A DNA stretch of 64,000 bases from Caulobacter sp. FWC26 (GTDB lineage: Bacteria; Pseudomonadota; Alphaproteobacteria; Caulobacterales; Caulobacteraceae). Shown piece by piece: positions 2 to 13,376 of this stretch. The DNA lies in the NCBI RefSeq assembly GCF_002742645.2, contig NZ_CP033873.1:62001-126000 (forward strand). The letters run 5' to 3'. The position numbers and the translations under genes are program-made. The notes under the pieces were generated by a model. That model was not told the DNA's origin, did not search any database, and saw nothing but the letters and a program-made list of their open reading frames with translations. Position 1 is the stretch's first letter; each line of letters opens with the position of its first letter.

Positions 2-535
2 AACCAGGGCGACAGCGGCCTCCTGGCGGTCGTCTACACCATTCTCAACAGGGTGGCCGACGGACGCTGGGGGCGCAGCATCGACCAGGTGCTCAACGCC
101 CGCGCCCAGTTCGAGCCGGTCTTGCGGGCAGGCGGCGACTGGCGCGGCCTGCCGGCCGCCAGCGCGGTGCAGCGGGCCCGTGTCGACACCCTCATCAACC
201 TGGTGGTGGACGGGCGCGCGCCCGACCTCACCGGCGGGGCGCTCTACTTCCAGAATCCGCGCATCGTCGCCGACCGCGCCGCCTCAGGCCAGGTCTCGCC
301 TCGGCTCGTTCATTTCGGGGGGCGCACGCCGAGCGCGGTGATCGGCGACCATGCGTTCTACCCGCCTCTGGAGCCGCCTCGCGCCGCGCCGGCGTCCGAG
401 CCGGCGGCGATCTTCGTGCCCAGGTCGCCGGCGGGCGAGGCGGGCGCCGCCGAGGCGACGGACCCGCCGCGCCAGGCGGGCGTGCGGGGGATCTTCGTGC
501 TGTCGGATGGGCGGACCGTCGAGAGCCGCCGATAG
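2..535 (+). CDS. SleB-type cell wall hydrolase, 5' end outside window
   Basis: The reading frame is open from the left edge, so the N-terminus is missing; 177 residues remain. The motif AVVYTILNRV followed by GRWGRSIDQVL and a QF pair is the core of the Hydrolase_2 (SleB/CwlJ) family, which cleaves peptidoglycan. The later segment GGALYFQNP also fits this fold. After roughly residue 120 comes a Pro/Ala-rich tail that looks like a linker. In mobile elements such hydrolases open the cell wall for assembly of the transfer machinery; that role here is inferred from the conjugation genes that follow. The gene ends just before the first structured-leader cassette. Confidence 0.75.
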   Translation, partial: NQGDSGLLAVVYTILNRVADGRWGRSIDQVLNARAQFEPVLRAGGDWRGLPAASAVQRARVDTLINLVVDGRAPDLTGGALYFQNPRIVADRAASGQVSPRLVHFGGRTPSAVIGDHAFYPPLEPPRAAPASEPAAIFVPRSPAGEAGAAEATDPPRQAGVRGIFVLSDGRTVESRR

Positions 536-653
536 GGGAGGGACCCCAAGAGGCGGTGACCGCGGTTCTCACGGGCGTGGGGCCGCGCGCCTGTCGGCCG
601 CGTCCCGCCGCGCCCATCGAAACGTCGTCTGGCGCGTGGGCCGGCCGTCCTGA

Positions 654-876
654 CGAGATCTCCATGAGATCTCGCCGCCGTCGTCTGGCGACGGCGTAGG
701 CCGGCCTACTGAGCCTGGGGGCGACGTCGTCCCATCGTGTCACGGCGCCCCGCCGGTCAACGGCTGCGCCGTTCCCCTGCGCGGCCGCATGGCCGCTCCG
801 GTGACAGGCGGGGACCCCGCCGTGTCCCGCCGGGTCAACGCCGCTCATCGGGAGCGGCCTGACGGAGGCTTTCACG
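654..876 (+). promoter_or_regulatory. Structured leader 1 of four
   Basis: First of four related leaders. Hairpins in order: stem A 654-661/667-674 (CGAGATCT pairs AGATCTCG); stem B 676-683/689-696 (CGCCGTCG pairs CGACGGCG); a palindrome at 697-708; the conserved core CTACTGAGCCTGGGGGCG from 706 and CCCATCG at 731; a closing stem TGTCAC 738-743 with GTGACA 801-806, which encloses stem D 759-763/769-773 and stem E 781-786/791-796; then stem F 841-846/852-857. The Shine-Dalgarno GGAGG lies at 864-868, in front of the ATG at 877. The 536-653 stretch upstream shows no gene. Confidence 0.65.
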
Positions 877-1185
877 ATGTTCAAGCTGATCGACACGCTG
901 ATGCGGATGCTGGGCGGCGCACCGCGGGTTCGGCTTGGGGAGCCGGCCGACGGCCATGTGGAGGCCTACTGGGACCACGTGGACCGCCAGATTTGGCAGC
1001 AGGAAGAGGCCGAGTGGGTCGCCGCGCGCGCGGCGCGGGAGGCCGAGTGGAACGCCCTGCCCGAGGCCGAACGCGAGGCGGTCATCGCCTGGTGCGACGA
1101 TCGCAACGCCGAGGGCAGGCTGGAGGATCACCGGTTCTACGCCCAGTGGCTGGCGCTGCGGATGCAGGGCTATGTCGGCGACTGA
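877..1185 (+). CDS. Small acidic hypothetical protein, cassette 1
   Basis: A 102-residue protein starting MFKLIDTLMRML. GGAGG stands 8 bases before the ATG. The middle (residues about 40-80) is a highly charged, probably helical stretch rich in Glu, Ala, Arg and Trp. The C-terminal part ends in the pattern EDHRFYAQWLALR. I do not recognise the family. The next cassette encodes a degraded relative with the same MFKLI start and a matching ADHMFFDQW end. It is transcribed alone, between a structured leader and its own terminator. Confidence 0.7.
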   Translation: MFKLIDTLMRMLGGAPRVRLGEPADGHVEAYWDHVDRQIWQQEEAEWVAARAAREAEWNALPEAEREAVIAWCDDRNAEGRLEDHRFYAQWLALRMQGYVGD

Positions 1186-1188
1186 GGC

Positions 1189-1212
1189 GGGGGGCGTAAG
1201 GCCCCCCTTTTT
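1189..1212 (+). terminator. Intrinsic terminator of cassette 1
   Basis: GGGGGGC at 1189-1195 pairs GCCCCCC at 1201-1207 around a 5-base loop, followed by five T. It starts 3 bases after the stop codon. Confidence 0.85.
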
Positions 1213-1387
1213 GTCCCTGGACGTGGTGAGGCAGGACCGGGCGGTCCGCGCGCCCTGGCGGGCGATGCGCGGGCGGCCCTACGGATGGGCCGGCGCTCGC
1301 CGTCCTCCCGGGCGCTGGCGCCCGCCGATGGCGGTCTGCCTTGGCGCCCGTCGGCCTGGCGTCCAGCGGCGGGCCCGGCCGTCCTGA

Positions 1388-1611
1388 CGAGATCTCCACG
1401 AGATCTCGCCGCCGTCGTCTGGCGACGGCGTAGGCCGGCCTACTGAGCCTGGTGGCGACGTCTTCCCATCGTGTCACGGACGACCCGAAGTCAACGGCTG
1501 CGCCGTTCCCCTCCACGCCCGCCTGGCGGGCGCTGCGGTGACTGCGGGACCCCGTCCGTGGCCCTCGGGTTCAACGTCGCTCACCCGGAGCGGCGGCCTG
1601 GAGATTTCACG
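1388..1611 (+). promoter_or_regulatory. Structured leader 2 of four
   Basis: This leader is very close to leader 1. Stem A is at 1388-1395/1401-1408 (same arms, loop CCACG), and stem B has the same arms and loop. The palindrome TAGGCCGGCCTA and the core CTACTGAGCC are present. The GTCAC and GTGAC pair closes stems D (AACGG/CCGTT) and E. Stem E at 1516-1521/1527-1532 is CGCCCG pairing CGGGCG, different from leader 1 but still complementary. GGAG stands before the ATG at 1612. The 1213-1387 stretch upstream holds no gene that I can see. Confidence 0.65.
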
Positions 1612-1840
1612 ATGTTCAAGCTGATTTTCAACCTGACCGCCCGCCCGGCGCGGCGCGCGCCCCTGGTCCTGACCGCGGCCGTGCCTGTCCTGGGTGATCG
1701 CGCCTTCGACCATCACGTCCGGGTGCGGGACGACCACTTCGAGACCCTTTACCTGGCTGAACACGGGCGGCAGGCTCGCGGATCACATGTTCTTCGACCA
1801 GTGGCAGGCGATCCGCAGGCGGGGCGCGGATCGCGACTGA
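1612..1840 (+). pseudogene. Frameshifted paralogue of the cassette 1 protein
   Basis: The ATG at 1612 opens with MFKLI, as in cassette 1. The sequence related to the C-terminal half of cassette 1 (GRLADHMFFDQW, matching GRLEDHRFYAQW) is in the next frame and stops at 1838-1840. A one-base indel therefore lies somewhere near 1740-1775. Read without the shift, the first frame runs on to 1962 through the terminator, which is unlikely. It may be a real pseudogene or a base-calling error; the intact product would be about 75 residues. Function unknown. Confidence 0.6.
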
Positions 1841-1843
1841 CCC

Positions 1844-1864
1844 GGGGGGCTTGGCCCCCCTTTT
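1844..1864 (+). terminator. Intrinsic terminator of cassette 2
   Basis: GGGGGG at 1844-1849 pairs CCCCCC at 1855-1860 around CTTGG, followed by four T. It follows the stop of the frameshifted ORF by 3 bases, which supports that frame as the original one. Confidence 0.8.
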
Positions 1865-2071
1865 GTCGCCATCGACACGCCGCGCTCGCTCCCCGGCCCG
1901 GCGGTCGGGGCCTATCGGCGCCCCCGACCGGCTGGGCGCGGTCGCGTCCTCCGCAAGCTTAGCGACCGTGTCGCTGGACCGGGTCTTCGACCAGGTCGCC
2001 GCCGATCCGGACGGATCGGCGCTCGGGGCGCCGGCGTCGCCGGCGCAAGTAGGGCTGGCGCAGGGTGGGGC

Positions 2072-2107
2072 CGGGGGCGCGACCTGCGGCGCGCGGACCC
2101 GGACTGA
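2072..2107 (+). repeat. 36-bp direct repeat, copy 1
   Basis: An identical 36-base block beginning CGGGGGCGCGACC is found here and at 2691-2726, about 90 to 125 bases before stem A of leaders 3 and 4. It lies in the 1865-2197 interval, which holds no gene that I can support. Partly similar sequence continues past the identical block (both copies have CTTGCCTC). It may be an outer part of the leader or its promoter region; it is absent before leaders 1 and 2. Confidence 0.8.
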
Positions 2108-2197
2108 AAGGCCGAGCGCGCTTGCCTCTCCGGGGCCGGCGCGGCGCGCCAGGCCCTGGTCGGCGCGCGTCTGGGGGAGGGCCCGGCCGGGCTGACA

Positions 2198-2419
2198 CGA
2201 TCGCCGCGCGATCGCGCCGCCGTCGTCCGGCGACGGCGTAGCCCGGCCTACTGAGCCTGGGGGCGCCTCTTCCCATCGCACCCTGTCACCCGAGCCCGTC
2301 AACCCGCTGACGCGGGTTCCCCTTGGGCGCGCGGCGCGCGCCCTGCGGTGACTGGCCGGGACCCGACAGGGGCAGGGGGGCAAGGCGCTCGCTGGGAGCG
2401 TCGTTCGGAGATCAGATCC
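2198..2419 (+). promoter_or_regulatory. Structured leader 3 of four
   Basis: This leader has the same order of elements with changed stems. Stem A at 2198-2203/2209-2214 is CGATCG pairing CGATCG. Stem B keeps its arms with loop TCCGG. The core CTACTGAGCCTGGGGGCG and TTCCCATCG are conserved. GTCACC pairs GGTGAC around stem D at 2301-2307/2312-2318 (AACCCGC/GCGGGTT) and stem E at 2325-2332/2336-2343 (GGGCGCGC/GCGCGCCC). Stem F is CGCTC/GAGCG. CGGAG at 2406-2410 precedes the ATG at 2420. Stems A, D and E differ from leader 1 on both arms. Confidence 0.65.
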
Positions 2420-2653
2420 ATGACCTTCTCACAGACGGAAAAGCGTGTTGTCGCGATCGGGATCAAGCTGTCGATCGTCCTCGGTTTTGTGGCCTGCCTG
2501 GGCCTCGTCGGCTCATGGTTCATGGGCCGACCGATCGGACCCAAGGTGATGGCGGGCTGCGGCTGCGGGCTGTCCTTGGCCCTGGTCTCGGCGCTGTATC
2601 TGGGCGTCTGCCAGTTCGTCATCGACGCTTGCGGCAAGAGGGAGGGGGCGTGA
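2420..2653 (+). CDS. Small two-helix membrane protein, cassette 3
   Basis: A 77-residue protein. Two hydrophobic segments, at about residues 12-35 (IGIKLSIVLGFVACLGLVGSW) and 44-68 (GCGCGLSLALVSALYLGVCQF), are joined by a short basic loop, so it is probably an inner-membrane protein with two spanning helices. CGGAG lies 9 bases before the ATG. No family is recognised, and the sequence is unrelated to the ORFs of the other cassettes even though the leader is shared. Its stop codon lies in the loop of the downstream terminator hairpin. Confidence 0.65.
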   Translation: MTFSQTEKRVVAIGIKLSIVLGFVACLGLVGSWFMGRPIGPKVMAGCGCGLSLALVSALYLGVCQFVIDACGKREGA

Positions 2654-2664
2654 GCCCCCTTTTT
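2644..2664 (+). terminator. Intrinsic terminator of cassette 3
   Basis: GGGGGC at 2644-2649 pairs GCCCCC at 2654-2659 around GTGA, followed by five T. The TGA stop is inside the loop. Confidence 0.85.
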
Positions 2665-2690
2665 GCGCCGGTGTCGCCAGGTGCGGTCCC

Positions 2691-2726
2691 CGGGGGCGCG
2701 ACCTGCGGCGCGCGGACCCGGACTGA
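2691..2726 (+). repeat. 36-bp direct repeat, copy 2
   Basis: Identical to 2072-2107, starting 619 bases downstream of it, in front of leader 4. Confidence 0.8.
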
Positions 2727-2814
2727 CAGGTCGCGCTCGCTTGCCTCCACGGCCCTGGCGCGAACGCGCAGGGTCCGGTCGGCGCGCGTCGGCCGGAGGG
2801 CCCGTCTCGCTGGC

Positions 2815-3043
2815 GGTCGCCCTGAAGGGCGACCGTCGCCGTCGACTGGCGACGGCGCGGCGTCGACTACTGAGCCTGGGGGCGCCTCTTCCCATCGTAT
2901 CCTGTCACCCAGCCCGTCAACCCGCTGGCGCGGGTTCCCCTCCAGGATCGCGCGGGCGCGATCCTTCCGGTGACGGGCCGGGGCCCGACAGGACCACAGG
3001 GACAAAGGCGCTCAAAGGGAGCGTCGGGAAAGCGGAGTGTCCC
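2815..3043 (+). promoter_or_regulatory. Structured leader 4 of four
   Basis: Stem A at 2815-2822/2827-2834 is GGTCGCCC pairing GGGCGACC with loop TGAA, a new sequence that is still fully paired. Stem B is CGCCGTCG/CGACGGCG with loop ACTGG. The core CTACTGAGCCTGGGGGCG is kept. GTCACC pairs GGTGAC around stem D at 2919-2925/2930-2936 and stem E at 2945-2952/2957-2964 (GGATCGCG/CGCGATCC). Stem F is CGCTC/GAGCG. GGAG stands 6 bases before the ATG at 3044. Confidence 0.65.
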
Positions 3044-3376
3044 ATGTCCTTCTCGCCCCATTTCGACCTGATCGACCGCGAGCTGATCGAGGCCCACATC
3101 GCCAGCGGCCAGCCTCGCTACAGCGTCACGCTCCACCTGGCGCGGGGCGGGTTCATCCGCCGGTGGAGCAACGATCGTGACGAGGCCCTGGCCGAGCATG
3201 GCGCGGCGATCAAGAGTCCGGACCTGGGCTGGGCCGTTACGTTCGACCATCTTGGCCTGGACTCGATCGCGGTCGATTTCCCGCCCGATGGCAAGACGGC
3301 CGAGCAACTGAGGGCCGAGTGCGACGCGGCGCTCGACGCGATGCTGGACCGCTGGGCGGCGCAGAGCCAACACTAG
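3044..3376 (+). CDS. Small hypothetical protein, cassette 4
   Basis: A 110-residue soluble protein, acidic overall, with no signal or membrane segment. The start at 3044 has GGAG 6 bases upstream and directly follows the structured leader. The middle (residues about 25-75) alternates short hydrophobic strands and polar turns, and the end (about 80-105) is a probable helix rich in Asp, Ala and Leu. I recognise no family. The leader and terminator place it in the same expression unit type as the three ORFs before it. Confidence 0.65.
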   Translation: MSFSPHFDLIDRELIEAHIASGQPRYSVTLHLARGGFIRRWSNDRDEALAEHGAAIKSPDLGWAVTFDHLGLDSIAVDFPPDGKTAEQLRAECDAALDAMLDRWAAQSQH

Positions 3377-3380
3377 GGAA

Positions 3381-3402
3381 GGGGGCGTCAGCCCCCTTTT
3401 TT
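3381..3402 (+). terminator. Intrinsic terminator of cassette 4
   Basis: GGGGGC at 3381-3386 pairs GCCCCC at 3391-3396 around GTCA, followed by six T. The stop of the convergent TraD-like gene falls inside it. Confidence 0.85.
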
Positions 3403-3936
3403 GCGCCGGCGAACCCCTGGCTTCGCCTCGGCGCCGGGCGCCTCGCGCGCCAGTCGATCGGCGGCCAGGGCCTCGAAGTCGGGCAGGGCCGGGACCTCGC
3501 GCGCCTTCACCGGCGCGATGGCCAGGCCCAGGGTCTCGGCGATGGCCAGGCGGTCGCGGGGCCGATGAACGCGGCTGTCGACGATGGCCATCAGCCGGGC
3601 CAGCAACGGGTCGTCCGGGTCGGCTGCGGCCTCGGCCAGCAGGGTCGTCCCCAGTACGATCTTGGCCCGGGTCTCGCGCTTGCGTTCGGTCTGGTCGAGT
3701 TGAGCTTCCAGCCGCTCGACCCGGGCGCGCCAGACGGCGAGGCGCTGATCGTCGTCCTCGATCTTCGCCAGAGGCTTGACGTTTGTTCGGTCGCGCGACG
3801 CCGAGCCGCTGATCCCGGCCAGCCGTTCGCGAGCCCGATGTTCGCGATCAGCCAGGGCCACGGCCTGGGCCAGGAGACGGCGCGTCCTGGCGGCGTCGCT
3901 CTCGGGTTTGCGGTGGGGGACGGCGGCGGAGGGCAT
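3388..3936 (-). CDS. TraD/TraC-like conjugal transfer accessory protein
   Basis: A 182-residue, strongly charged protein. Residues about 60-100 form a probable coiled coil (DDDQRLAVWRARVERLEAQL), followed by the segment ETRAKIVLGTTLLAEA. That segment recalls the KxxTRxKIxLGxxLL motif of Agrobacterium/Rhizobium TraC and TraD, which assist the relaxase at oriT. The gene is divergent from the relaxase and the oriT lies between them, the same layout as in Ti plasmids. The C-terminus is basic (RRRKKGG). The exact subfamily is uncertain. Confidence 0.6.
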   Translation of the reverse strand: MPSAAVPHRKPESDAARTRRLLAQAVALADREHRARERLAGISGSASRDRTNVKPLAKIEDDDQRLAVWRARVERLEAQLDQTERKRETRAKIVLGTTLLAEAAADPDDPLLARLMAIVDSRVHRPRDRLAIAETLGLAIAPVKAREVPALPDFEALAADRLAREAPGAEAKPGVRRRKKGG

Positions 3937-4018
3937 GGGGTTAAGCCGGGCGGGGTGGATGGAGGAGCGACTTGATCTTGGACCGGCATGAGGGTACGCC
4001 TAACCCGTCGGTGATGAC

Positions 4019-4048
4019 AAGGGCGCAGTTATGCATTGCAAGCAATGC
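4019..4048 (-). other. Predicted oriT with RSF1010-type nic site
   Basis: On the minus strand an inverted repeat, GCATTGC-TT-GCAATGC (plus 4033-4048), is followed directly by TAACTGCGCCCTT (plus 4019-4031). The order and sequence match the RSF1010/Ti nic region (inverted repeat, then TAAGTG^CGCCCT). By that analogy the cut falls between plus positions 4025 and 4026 on the minus strand. The 5' end then reads towards lower coordinates, so the cassette side would enter the recipient first. It sits between the TraD-like gene and the relaxase, as expected for a MOBQ system. Confidence 0.85.
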
Positions 4049-4054
4049 CTGCGG

Positions 4055-4100
4055 CCGGGGTCGTCCCAACGACCCCGGAAAGCCAAGGGGCGAGCCCCTT
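4055..4100 (+). other. Two strong hairpins in the relaxase leader
   Basis: CCGGGGTCGT at 4055-4064 pairs ACGACCCCGG at 4069-4078, and AAGGGG at 4085-4090 pairs CCCCTT at 4095-4100. They lie between oriT and the relaxase start. A shorter pairing (GCGCC/GGCGC) follows near 4112-4124. No T run follows, so they are not simple terminators; they may regulate relaxase translation or serve as binding sites at oriT. Confidence 0.5.
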
Positions 4101-4140
4101 AGCGATCCCCAGCGCCAAGGCGCCAGGCAGAGGAGAAAGC

Positions 4141-5652
4141 GTGGCCCAGTTCCGGCTCGAGGTGCAGGCGATCAAGCGCGCGGACGGCCGTTCAGCCGTC
4201 GCCGCCGCGGCCTATCGCGCCGCCACGAGCCTGCACGACGCTCGCCTGGAGATGACCTTCGACTACACCGCCAAGGGCGGGGTGGTGTTCGCCGGCGTCA
4301 TGGCGCCGGAGGGCGCGCCGGCGTCGTTTCTGAACCGCGAGACGCTGTGGAACGCCGCCGAAGCGGCCGACAAGCGGGCTGACTCCCGTACCGCCCGCGA
4401 AGTGCTGATCTCCCTGCCGCACGAACTGAGCGACGATCAGCGCCACGATCTGGTGCGCGCCTTCGTGGCCGACAGCCTGGTGGCGCGCGGCATGATCGCT
4501 GACTACGCCATCCACGATCCGGACGCCCATGGCGACCAGCGCAATCATCACGCCCATATCCTGGTCACCACCCGCCGAGTGGCCCCCGAGGGGTTTGGCC
4601 TGAAGGGTCGCGAATGGGACAATCCCGACGCCGTCGCGGCCTTGCGCCTTGAGTGGTGCGCCATCCAGAACCAGCATCTGCGCGAGCGTCTTGGTCCTGA
4701 CGCGCCTCAAGTCTCGCACCTGAGCCTGGACCGCCGGGGCGAAGACCAAGAACCGACCATCCATCTGGGGCCAGCGGCCTCGGGCATGGAGCGGCGCGGC
4801 GAGGCCACCGACCGCGGCGACATCAACCGCCGGATCGAGGCGCGCAACAACGCCCGCAAGGAGGGCCCCAAGAAGGTCCGCGATCTGGAGGACCGCATGG
4901 CCCAGGGCTTGGAGCGGGGGCCCTATCCGATTGGCGCGGTGATCCGCGAGTTCGAGACCATCCATGCCACTATGGTCCAGGAACGCGACGGCTGGGCGCG
5001 GGCGCTGGGCGGCCTGCAGCGTCCGGCTCCGCCTCGCGCCAGCGAGATCGTGCGGGAAATCCTGGCGGAGGCGGGGACGGCGCGAGCGGCGGCCAAGGCC
5101 AGGCTGGCGGCCACCGAGCGTCGGATCGCGCGCGGACGGACGCGGCGCGCCAGCCTGCTGCGTTGGATCAACAATCCGGCGCGGATGATCTGGGCGGCGC
5201 ATGCCGAACTCAATGCGCTGGTCCGCGACCGACAGGCCGCGCGCCTGGCCGAGATCCGCTACACGGTGCGCCGAGACTGGCTGGGCGGAACCGACGGGCG
5301 TTCGTACCTGGCCGCGCGCCTCAATCCCGAGAAGCAGGCCGCCGAGACGGCGCGCCGCGACGCGCGGACCCTCGAGCGCAAGATCAAGCGGGCCGACAAG
5401 CGCATCGAGGCGGTCTCGCGCACCCGCACCCGACTGCTGGTCGCCCAGGCGCTCGGCGAGCAGACCCTGGTGGCGCCGGCGCAGATGGGGCTGGGCGTGG
5501 GGCAGGCGGTGCGGGAGGTCGATCGGCGCGCGGTCGAGGCCATCGCCCGGCATCCGCTCGCCGACCAGCAGAAGGGCCTGCAGCAGGTGCTGGCGCTGGC
5601 GCGCGGCAAATCACCGTTCCCAGGACCCGAGCCATCGGGTCCCGGGCGCTAG
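4141..5652 (+). CDS. mobA: MobA/MobL-family (MOBQ) relaxase
   Basis: A 503-residue relaxase that cuts oriT and leads the strand to the recipient. The GTG at 4141 is preferred because AGGAGA lies just upstream and the protein then begins with the family pattern FRLEVQAIKR...GRSAVAAAAYRA, placing Tyr at residue 25 as in RSF1010 MobA. Motif III is NHHAHI (residues 135-140), the metal-binding histidines. IHLGP...MERRGEATDRGDINRRI is the conserved follow-on segment. The C-terminal half (about 270-500) is Arg-rich and helical. Unlike Ti TraA it has no fused helicase; a separate SF1 helicase gene ends 3 bases away on the other strand. Confidence 0.9.
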   Translation: MAQFRLEVQAIKRADGRSAVAAAAYRAATSLHDARLEMTFDYTAKGGVVFAGVMAPEGAPASFLNRETLWNAAEAADKRADSRTAREVLISLPHELSDDQRHDLVRAFVADSLVARGMIADYAIHDPDAHGDQRNHHAHILVTTRRVAPEGFGLKGREWDNPDAVAALRLEWCAIQNQHLRERLGPDAPQVSHLSLDRRGEDQEPTIHLGPAASGMERRGEATDRGDINRRIEARNNARKEGPKKVRDLEDRMAQGLERGPYPIGAVIREFETIHATMVQERDGWARALGGLQRPAPPRASEIVREILAEAGTARAAAKARLAATERRIARGRTRRASLLRWINNPARMIWAAHAELNALVRDRQAARLAEIRYTVRRDWLGGTDGRSYLAARLNPEKQAAETARRDARTLERKIKRADKRIEAVSRTRTRLLVAQALGEQTLVAPAQMGLGVGQAVREVDRRAVEAIARHPLADQQKGLQQVLALARGKSPFPGPEPSGPGR

Positions 5653-11475: not shown

Positions 11476-11901
11476 CTAGAGCAGGGTGAGGGTGACGTTG
11501 ATGTTGCCCTGGGTGGCGTTGGAATAGGGGCAGACGACGTGTGCGCGGCGCACCAGGTCTTCGGCCAGCGCGCGATCGAGGCCGGGGAGCGAGATCCGCA
11601 GCTCGGCCTCGATCCCGAATCCTGTCGGGATCGGACCGATGCCGACGCGGCCCTCGACGCTCGCCTCGGCGGGTAGTTTTTGGCGCTGCTGGTTGGCGAC
11701 GAAATTGAGCGCCCCCAGAAAACAGGCCGAATAGCCGGCGGCGAACAGTTGCTCGGGATTGGCGCCGGGCGCGCCATTGCCGCCCAGCTCGCGCGGCATG
11801 GTCAGTTTGACGTCGAGCACGTGGTCGTCGGTATGGGCACGCCCTTCGCGTCCGCCGCTGGCGCGGGCTTGGCCGACATAGAGGACGGTTTCAACAGGCA
11901 T
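11476..11901 (-). CDS. ohr: Organic hydroperoxide resistance protein (Ohr/OsmC family)
   Basis: A 141-residue thiol peroxidase that reduces organic hydroperoxides. The two redox cysteines are visible in YSACFLGAL (about residue 58) and HVVCPYSNAT (about 122). The ATG at 11901 has GGAAGG about 8 bases upstream and gives the usual length of the family; the in-frame GTG at 11910 is less likely. No OhrR regulator is adjacent. It is an ordinary chromosomal-type gene lying between two conjugation fragments, so it marks either captured DNA or a deletion junction. Confidence 0.9.
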   Translation of the reverse strand: MPVETVLYVGQARASGGREGRAHTDDHVLDVKLTMPRELGGNGAPGANPEQLFAAGYSACFLGALNFVANQQRQKLPAEASVEGRVGIGPIPTGFGIEAELRISLPGLDRALAEDLVRRAHVVCPYSNATQGNINVTLTLL

Positions 11902-11992
11902 GGGAAACACCTTCCGGGGCAGGCCCCGCGTGCGCCGGCTCGCCTTGAGCGACGAGCCGGCTGTGGACAGCAGAAGCGGGACGAGGTGACGA

Positions 11993-12089: not shown

Positions 12090-13376
12090 GCGGCCGAGGC
12101 GGCCGACAAGCGCGCGGACTCGCGCACCGCTCGCGAGATCCTGGTGTCGCTGCCCCACGAGCTGTCCGACGATCAGCGCCACGGCCTCGTCCGCGCCTTC
12201 ATCGCCGAGAGCCTGGTGGGCAAGGGCATGATCGCCGACTACGGCATCCACTATCCCGACGCCCACGGCGACGAGCGAAACCATCACGCCCACATCCTGG
12301 TGACGACCCGCCGTGTCGGGCCTGAAGGCTTCGGCTTCAAGGCTCGGGAGTGGGACAACCCGGACGCAGTGAAAGCCCTGCGCCTGGAGTGGGAGCAGAT
12401 CCAGAACCTGCATCTGCGGCAGCATCTTGGTCAGGAGGCGCCGCAGGTCACCAGCCGCAGTCTGAACGATCAGGGCCTGGACCAGGAGCCGACCATCCAC
12501 CTGGGGCCGGCCGCCTCGGGGATGGAGCGGCGCGGGGAGGCGTCCGATCGCGGCGATATCAACCGCCGGGTCCAGACCCGCAACGCCGAGCGCCAGACGC
12601 GCCCCGTTCAGGTGCGCGAGCTCGAGGACCAGATGGCGGCCGGACGTCCGCGCCAGGCCTATCCGATCGATGCGGTGATCCGCGAGTTCGAGGCCATCCA
12701 CCAGACCATGGTTCGCGAGCGCGACAGCTGGGCCCGCGCCCAGGCGCGCGTCACCGCGCCGATCGAGGTTCCTACGGCCCGGTCCGTGGTGAGCGAGGTG
12801 ATGGGCGAGGCCCTTTCGCGACGGGCGGCGGCGGCCCGGCGACTGGACTGGACCCAGAACCGCATCGAGCAGGGCAGGGCGCGTCGCCAGACCCTGGTGC
12901 GATGGGTCCGCAACCCGGTCCGGATGATCTGGGCGGCGCATGCCGAGATGAACGCGGTCGATCGGGCGCGCGCGGCGGACCGGCGCGCGGAGGTCGATCT
13001 GAAGGTTCGCCAGGAGTGGCTGCGCAGCGAGGCCGGCCGGGTCTATCTCGCCTCCCGCCTGGATCCTCCGCGGCAGGCGGCGGCGGATGCGCGGCGCGAA
13101 GCTCGGACCCTTGAGCGCAAGATCAAGCGCGCCGACCGCCGCATCGAGGCGGTCGCGCGCACCCGAGTGAAGCTACTGGTGGCCCGGGAGCTAGGGCATG
13201 ACAAGATGGTCGCGCCCACTCGCATGGACCTGGGCGTGGGGCAGGCGGTGCGCGAGGTCGATCGCCGGGCGGTCGATGTCGTCAAGGCGCACGCGCCGCT
13301 CGCCCAGGAGCGGGCGCTGAGTAAGGTCATGGCGCTTGTGCAGGGCAAGGTCCCAGGGATCGGGCCAGATCGCTGA
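12090..13376 (+). pseudogene. mobA: N-terminally truncated MobA/MobL relaxase, copy 2
   Basis: From 12090 to the end this frame closely follows the relaxase at 4141-5652, from its residue 72 (AAEAADKRADSRTARE) to the end. The first 71 residues, including the catalytic Tyr25, are absent and replaced by unrelated sequence. The metal site NHHAHI and the HLGP...MERRGE segment remain. Without the tyrosine it cannot cut DNA, and no oriT is seen upstream of it. An ATG at 12045 could still allow expression of a 443-residue product, but I treat the gene as a relic. Confidence 0.8.

Follow-up and report, generated by a model that had tools for sequence, protein, structure and literature searches.

The window analysed here is a stretch of 64,000 nucleotides (nt) of Caulobacter sp. 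FWC26 (contig NZ_CP033873.1, 298 kb; positions 62,001-126,000 of the forward strand). Between ~641 and 3402 it holds four units, each composed of (i) an intergenic structured element, (ii) a single small open reading frame (ORF) and (iii) a terminator-like hairpin with a T run. The sequence comparisons and folding models make it very probable that each copy of the element is a Frpo-like single-stranded-DNA promoter of a conjugative leading region, combined with a short mRNA hairpin. With slightly less confidence, we consider it likely that the copies belong to a covariance-defined family of such promoters with no detected sequence relation to Frpo, which is carried by MOBQ, MOBF and VirD2-like (MOBP) elements across Caulobacteraceae, whose wobble pairs reveal by their direction which strand folds (G.T for the transferred DNA, G.U for the mRNA hairpin), and in which the -10 region would be found at the hairpin base, in a loop that is already open. 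The structure, the folding strand, the orientation, the link to relaxases and the promoter motif are supported by computation.

An earlier note on this DNA had described four leaders of ~220 nt in front of small ORFs. All four were found where it had placed them, and the stem A, D and E sequences and the core CTACTGAGCC...CCCATCG that it quoted can be read in them. The cores of copies 1 and 2 (715-858 and 1449-1594) represent subtype I, and those of copies 3 and 4 (2257-2402 and 2876-3025) subtype II; all lie on the minus strand, with the A and B hairpins of copy 1 upstream, from ~641. In two of the first 13 copies compared, hairpin B is missing, alone or together with A. A structure is under selection as claimed, but the family-wide unit is a core of ~146 nt (144-150 nt in the window, 144-151 nt across the first 13 copies) and not the whole leader. 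Outside the Caulobacter MOBQ group, to which it belongs, CTACTGAGCC was not seen in a motif comparison of 80 copies. A further common repeat (GCGCGACCTGCGGCGCGCGGACC...) was noticed by eye upstream of the core, before units 3 and 4 (1868-2180 and 2667-2794) and in loci L023 and L030; the conserved unit may thus be longer than the covariance model.

Folded singly as RNA, copies 1, 3 and 4 gave z-scores of -5.5, -3.4 and -3.5, and none of the 200 shuffled sequences generated for each was equally stable. The covariation analysis comprised 81 distinct homologues from 46 loci, which were chosen by hand among the matches and do not represent all of them. In their alignment, which was fitted to the model structure and leans towards it, 92.1% of cells were paired and 26 of 33 pairs were changed on both sides. 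The covariation score was 0.428, compared with 0.111 (standard deviation 0.007) when the 3' letters were shuffled and 0.03-0.07 when the partners were slid, which bears out the earlier claim of a covarying structure under selection. The statement that no named RNA family has this layout also stood, as a search of the window against Rfam at gathering thresholds returned no matches.

The strand on which the element folds was examined using wobble pairs, given that a G.T pair on the minus strand appears as A.C on the plus strand, and a G.U pair in the mRNA as G.T on the plus strand. Read on the plus strand, helices P1, P2, P3, D and E contained 39 A.C and 7 G.U, compared with 2 A.C and 36 G.U in the hairpin preceding the ribosome-binding site (other mismatches: 135 in the upstream helices, 23 in the last hairpin). 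The difference in the A.C:G.U ratio between upstream helices and last hairpin persisted when the sequences were grouped into 39 clusters at 85% identity (34:7 vs 2:19, Fisher p 2e-8) and into 14 clusters at 75% identity (20:7 vs 2:14, p 1e-4). The priors of Infernal favour G.U, and the alignment should therefore lean against an excess of A.C. A recount with symmetric scoring, in which A.C was placed first, gave 19:7 for helix E and 5:48 for the last hairpin.

Folding energies were in line with this asymmetry. With DNA parameters, the promoter part was predicted to be more stable on the minus strand in 77 of 80 copies, less stable in 2 and equal in 1 (median difference -4.5 kcal/mol). Among control segments, drawn at random from the same loci in the same orientation and at least 400 nt from the copy concerned (some may touch other copies), the minus strand was more stable in 192 of 448 (median +0.4). 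Minimum free energy folds of the minus strand recovered the model pairs of helices P1-P3, D and E more often than folds of the plus strand did, and the pairs of the last hairpin less often. With RNA parameters, the last hairpin was more stable as mRNA in 68 of 80 copies and less stable in 12. Wobble pairs and folding energies together assign P1, P2, D and E to the complement of the mRNA, i.e., the presumed transferred DNA strand (T strand). RNA-like behaviour is confined to the last hairpin, which precedes the ribosome-binding site; in the window it occupies 840-858, 1576-1594, 2384-2402 and 3007-3025 of the plus strand, with a U.G pair in copy 2 and a G.U pair in copies 3 and 4. Copy 1 would accordingly fold on the minus (T) strand and drive a gene of the plus strand.

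The position of the element relative to conjugation genes was analyzed by tblastn with relaxases on 47 loci carrying 92 copies (83 alignment rows and the nine copies of a Brevundimonas nasdae plasmid, L166). Some of these loci are not independent of each other: L091 and L092 are nearly identical in this region, and L064, L065 and L166 derive from one species. The Pfam scan covers part of the relaxase proteins. A relaxase was found within the fetched stretch on 40 loci. In five of the remaining seven, the stretch or contig measures 2.5 to 10.5 kb, and the other two (L065 and L105) have a MOBF relaxase elsewhere on the contig. Of the 78 copies on the 40 loci, 75 point to the relaxase and lie on its strand: 29/29 beside MOBQ, 25/28 beside MOBF, 19/19 beside DUF3363 relaxase-like genes and 2/2 beside other VirD2-like genes. 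The link to conjugation genes and the cis-acting position that the earlier note had proposed are both supported.

The relaxase of the window is encoded at 4141-5652 of the plus strand and belongs to the MobQ type (MobA_MobL, 2.3e-61; NCBIfam NF041496, 243 bits, above the cut-off of 200). A MOBQ nic-like sequence, TAACTGCGCCCTT, is located at 4019-4031 of the minus strand. In the part of the MOBQ nic consensus NWACCNNTAAGTGCGCCCTYNN (given in PMC3832669) that runs from TAAG to Y, it agrees at 12 of 13 letters; over all 17 specified letters it agrees at 14. Of 12 MOBQ loci, 11 carry this nic-like sequence, in each case opposite in strand to the genes. Together with the cleavage polarity at MOBQ nic, which we take to be such that the 5' end CCCT leads, the site suggests that the minus strand is the transferred strand; the elements would therefore lie in the leading region, and the genes behind them would be templated by the T strand. 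A second MobQ-like stretch is present on the same strand at 12105-13370 (66% identity to residues 77-497 of the first), and a search of the window yielded just one nic-like site. In a further type of locus, represented by L101 (9744-12432) and similar cases (18 loci, 19 copies), apparent integrated elements carry a copy before a YspA-like SLOG gene, a Pfam-checked assignment in L101 alone, followed by a DUF3363 relaxase-like gene, mostly 1.2-1.3 kb from the copy. ParB-, SSB- and GcrA-like genes were noticed by eye upstream.

The T strand of the element carries a promoter-like motif. The sequence TTGAC was present in all 80 long copies, at the junction of stem D and P3, and was followed at a fixed place, the base of P1, by A (93%), G (85%), A (80%) and T (95%), summarized as YANGAT. 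In 62 of the 80 copies, a spacer of exactly 15 nt separates the TTGAC hexamer from xAxxAT. In the window, TTGAC occurs on the minus strand at 756-760 (copy 1, D/P3 junction), 1490-1494 (copy 2), 2298-2302 (copy 3) and 2916-2920 (copy 4). At a spacer of 15, the -10-like sequences are CACGAT in copies 1 and 2 (734-739 and 1468-1473) and TACGAT in copy 4 (2894-2899), all on the minus strand; in copy 3, TGCGAT lies at a spacer of 16 and has no A at position 2, and xAxxAT was not found. The consensus given for Caulobacter RpoD in PMC8144410 is TTGaCgS (-35) and GCtANAWC (-10), and the -35 of the element fits it.

These features can be combined into the following model. Nicking of the plasmid would take place at the MOBQ-type oriT (~4019-4031), after which the minus strand would enter the recipient with its 5' end first, so that positions below 4019 form the leading region. 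As long as the strand is single, each element would fold on itself, with stem D stacking on P3, P2 and P1; the fold would rebuild the -35 (TTGAC) and bring the -10-like YANGAT to the base of P1, which would be open. The RNA polymerase of the host could then bind the folded element and copy the T strand. The 3' arm would serve as non-template and the 5' arm as template, and transcription would therefore proceed towards oriT and into the ORF. A short mRNA, starting near the base of the hairpin, would comprise a small 5' hairpin, a ribosome-binding site, the coding sequence of one small protein and its own terminator, and synthesis of the second strand would turn the promoter off. Expression of the genes behind the element would thereby begin upon arrival of the DNA in a new cell. 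The nicking, transfer polarity, transcription from single-stranded DNA, start site and switch-off are steps that we infer.

Several observations weigh against this model. Three of the 78 copies, at the far ends of the MOBF plasmids L063 (1041-1188), L075 (6047-6187) and L166 (41607-41753), form a recurring class that faces away from the relaxase, and they count against a T-strand promoter because the T strand would not be the template there. They sit beyond ssb where ssb was seen, and in L063 and L075 they stand before small genes that are related. A copy in L065 (9615-9762), with no relaxase in reach, is perhaps a far-end copy of like orientation. The loci were hand-picked from the matches with strong ones favoured, and in one MOBQ locus of the 12 searched (L089) the nic-like site was not found. 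As for the motif, TTGAC served as the alignment anchor, so that its presence in 80/80 copies is partly built in; xAxxAT at a spacer of 15 is missing in 18 of the 80 copies (including copy 3 of the window, and one with a spacer of 13); the -10 does not fit the Caulobacter consensus; and the spacer of 15 nt is short of the usual 17. The wobble asymmetry falls to 16:7 vs 2:9 (p 0.009) in four clusters at 70% identity, and the sequences are not independent. Since shuffled columns already predict A.C:G.U ratios of 100:71 in the upstream helices and 21:52 in the last hairpin, the direction of the wobble is partly compositional. The symmetric recount of P1/P2 was weak and noisy (49:31), with an arm alignment that overran the helices. 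Finally, when F was folded as a control, its T strand was barely more stable than the other strand (-76.7 vs -73.4 and -72.4 vs -71.6).

Other explanations of the element were weighed against the same data. The earlier note had favoured a cis-regulatory RNA leader, in which transcription starts upstream of the stems and a 5' untranslated region of ~220 nt folds and controls translation. The plus strand of three copies does fold stably as RNA, the covariation is strong, the element ends at the ribosome-binding site, and the last hairpin shows G.U changes of the RNA type. However, the paucity of G.U relative to A.C in P1, P2, D and E (7 vs 39), which led us to reject an RNA riboswitch or leader, and the better folding of the minus-strand DNA (77/80) put these helices on the opposite DNA strand, and a generic RNA switch does not predict the tie to relaxases or the orientation; we therefore regard an RNA leader as quite unlikely. 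A single-strand initiation (ssi) site, whose main task would be to prime synthesis of the second strand on the transferred one and which would affect gene expression secondarily, would have an identical strand and polarity, and Frpo itself is reportedly involved in both transcription and primer synthesis. Up to nine copies are found per plasmid, whereas one priming site would presumably suffice; among the matches listed, the copies usually stand just before an ORF, and a terminator-like hairpin follows every unit of the window. We give this explanation as small a chance as the RNA leader.

An ordinary promoter of double-stranded DNA, located on the minus strand and producing an antisense RNA upstream of each unit, would account for TTGAC...YANGAT standing in the usual -35/-10 order on that strand. 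It would require no covarying stems (D, E, P1 and P2) and no near-constant position relative to the start codons of the opposite strand, and we consider it very improbable. A scan of 500-4150 with an E. coli-type model, which is ill-suited to GC-rich DNA and expected to yield 0.1 hits by chance, detected no sigma-70-like double-stranded promoter, which speaks weakly for the single-stranded model. Integron-like cassette sites were rejected on inspection only, given that the repeat stands ahead of each gene and that relaxase genes are nearby; no integrase search was made.

The distribution of the element was determined using two covariance models, R1, built from 13 copies (the four of the window and nine of its relatives), and a broader model, R2. 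In the genome of strain FWC26, BLAST and the covariance model gave full matches to the four copies of the window only, and BLAST also gave short matches with E-values of 0.01 and above. The nine further copies come from the contigs of four relatives, where they keep the same order and are likewise flanked by a hydrolase gene and the relaxase. A covariance search of alphaproteobacterial genomes, the check that the earlier note had named, yielded matches of R1 in 86 of 390 genomes of Caulobacteraceae (9 of 22 genera). In an even draw of 385 genomes across the class, the sole match of either R1 or R2 was the genome of the window itself, with strict filters that lose weak matches and with each family thinly sampled.

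The exact pattern of hairpin D occurred in 56 stretches of the genome contig collection. The titles of 50 of these name Caulobacteraceae, a genus of this family or Caulobacterales; five are labelled just as Alphaproteobacteria metagenome-assembled genomes (MAGs; one contig appears twice), and one belongs to an Ignavibacteriae MAG, with an R2 E-value of 0.16, which is near chance. Searches of plasmids with two of the copies gave matches in Caulobacteraceae and one short match in Sphingobium. A phage origin was discarded, as in the viral collection the D-hairpin pattern gave three stretches with R2 E-values of 0.03 to 0.11. The same element is present on further plasmids and integrated elements. 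One of them, the Brevundimonas nasdae plasmid L166 (NZ_CP080035), has nine model matches, two of which are weak or partial; it carries mobF, radC, a RelE/ParE toxin gene and ssb, and is typed as non-mobilizable in PLSDB.

The closest functional parallel in layout is provided by the single-stranded promoters Frpo/ssi of F, ColIb-P9 and related plasmids, reportedly described by Masai and Arai in 1997 (cited in PMC9849209 and PMC11541004). Like the element as modelled here, these (i) lie in the leading region in several copies, (ii) are located upstream of genes templated by the transferred strand, with ssb in the region in some plasmids, and (iii) form a T-strand hairpin; this hairpin bears -35 and -10 elements, to which the TTGAC and the -10-like sequence of the element may correspond. 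In F, as in the window, most genes of the leading region are oriented towards the transfer genes, taking the usual placement of its oriT, and the one that adjoins traM is reversed. The element differs from Frpo/ssi in its GC-rich core of ~146 nt with a branched top bearing hairpins D and E, in the single gene per unit in the window, and in its location beside MOBQ, MOBF and VirD2-like (MOBP) relaxases of Caulobacteraceae. Homology to Frpo was rejected, as the best E-value of R2 on the F leading region was 0.51, and no enterobacterial plasmid was among the plasmid matches of the two copies. The element resembles Frpo in layout and, as far as tested by these searches, stands outside the Frpo sequence family. 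The transfer regions of MOBQ plasmids of the RSF1010 and Ti TraA kind share with the window the relaxase family and the nic-like sequence, and differ in that the repeated element was not found in the 384 other genomes sampled in the class; RSF1010 and Ti plasmids themselves were covered as far as they are present in the plasmid collection searched.

The experiments on single-stranded promoters in the sources at hand concern the enterobacterial plasmids F and ColIb-P9. In one of these sources, deletion of Frpo1 or Frpo2 from F is reported to abolish any significant early increase in leading-gene reporter signal in recipients (PMC9849209). Frpo-like promoters in leading regions have been found mostly by similarity; the survey concerned used similarity to five known sequences, and a structure-and-consensus search in a few islands (PMC11541004), and another source ties Frpo to PsiB plasmids (PMC12826799). 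Literature searches combining Frpo with Alphaproteobacteria found no report, although the supplementary lists of PMC11541004 may hold a Caulobacteraceae entry; none was found for single-stranded-DNA promoters with conjugation and Caulobacter, and none of the matches listed joins a single-stranded DNA promoter with Alphaproteobacteria.

The small ORFs behind the four copies are all located on the plus strand. Unit 1 (877-1185) encodes an acidic protein of 102 amino acids (computed isoelectric point 4.8; family I, C-terminal GYVGD). Unit 2 is read mechanically as 1612-1962 and is family I-like; by eye, its frame (1612-1860) seems to diverge from that of the relative L029. Unit 3 (2420-2653; 77 amino acids, family II) is hydrophobic and by eye a membrane protein, and unit 4 (3044-3376; 110 amino acids, family III) is acidic (computed isoelectric point 5.0). 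The proteins of units 1, 3 and 4 had nothing above the curated cut-offs in Pfam or NCBIfam, and PADLOC gave no hit. The terminator-like hairpins with T runs, also on the plus strand, were detected by both the terminator scanner and the pattern search after units 1 (1189-1212) and 2 (1844-1864), and by the pattern search alone after units 3 (2644-2664) and 4 (3381-3402), where the scanner listed none.

A cell wall hydrolase-like ORF (53-535, plus strand; Hydrolase_2, 8e-06, 26.9 bits against a cut-off of 27) lies where the presumed leading region ends, away from oriT, and is also present in four relatives. An ORF of 182 amino acids on the opposite strand (3388-3936, minus) adjoins the presumed oriT and has counterparts in four relatives at 62-74% identity. 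Further into the window, amid the transfer genes, an ORF of the minus strand (11476-11910) resembles, by eye, an OsmC/Ohr family protein.

In relatives, the genes directly behind the copies include DUF4326 and PAPS-reductase-like genes, a gene for a Gp49-like toxin, followed by its likely partner, and a SLOG (YspA-like) gene ahead of the DUF3363 relaxase-like gene. RadC is encoded by the second gene of its unit, and ssb lies within the region in some relatives. Leading regions are described as enriched in anti-defence, SSB and toxin-antitoxin genes, encoded by the T strand in the terms of that paper (PMC11541004). The small proteins of the window may act in establishment or counter-defence.

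The comparison of wobble directions used here, which asks of alignments alone whether the DNA of one strand or the RNA of the other is selected, could be applied elsewhere. If the proposed role of the element is true, a strongly covarying family from a different bacterial class, apparently unrelated to the known promoters, would suggest that gene expression from entering single-stranded DNA is more widespread than the known cases or arose more than once. It would also supply a structural signature for finding more such promoters, and would mark many uncharacterised genes that are first to enter the recipient as candidates for establishment or anti-defence functions.

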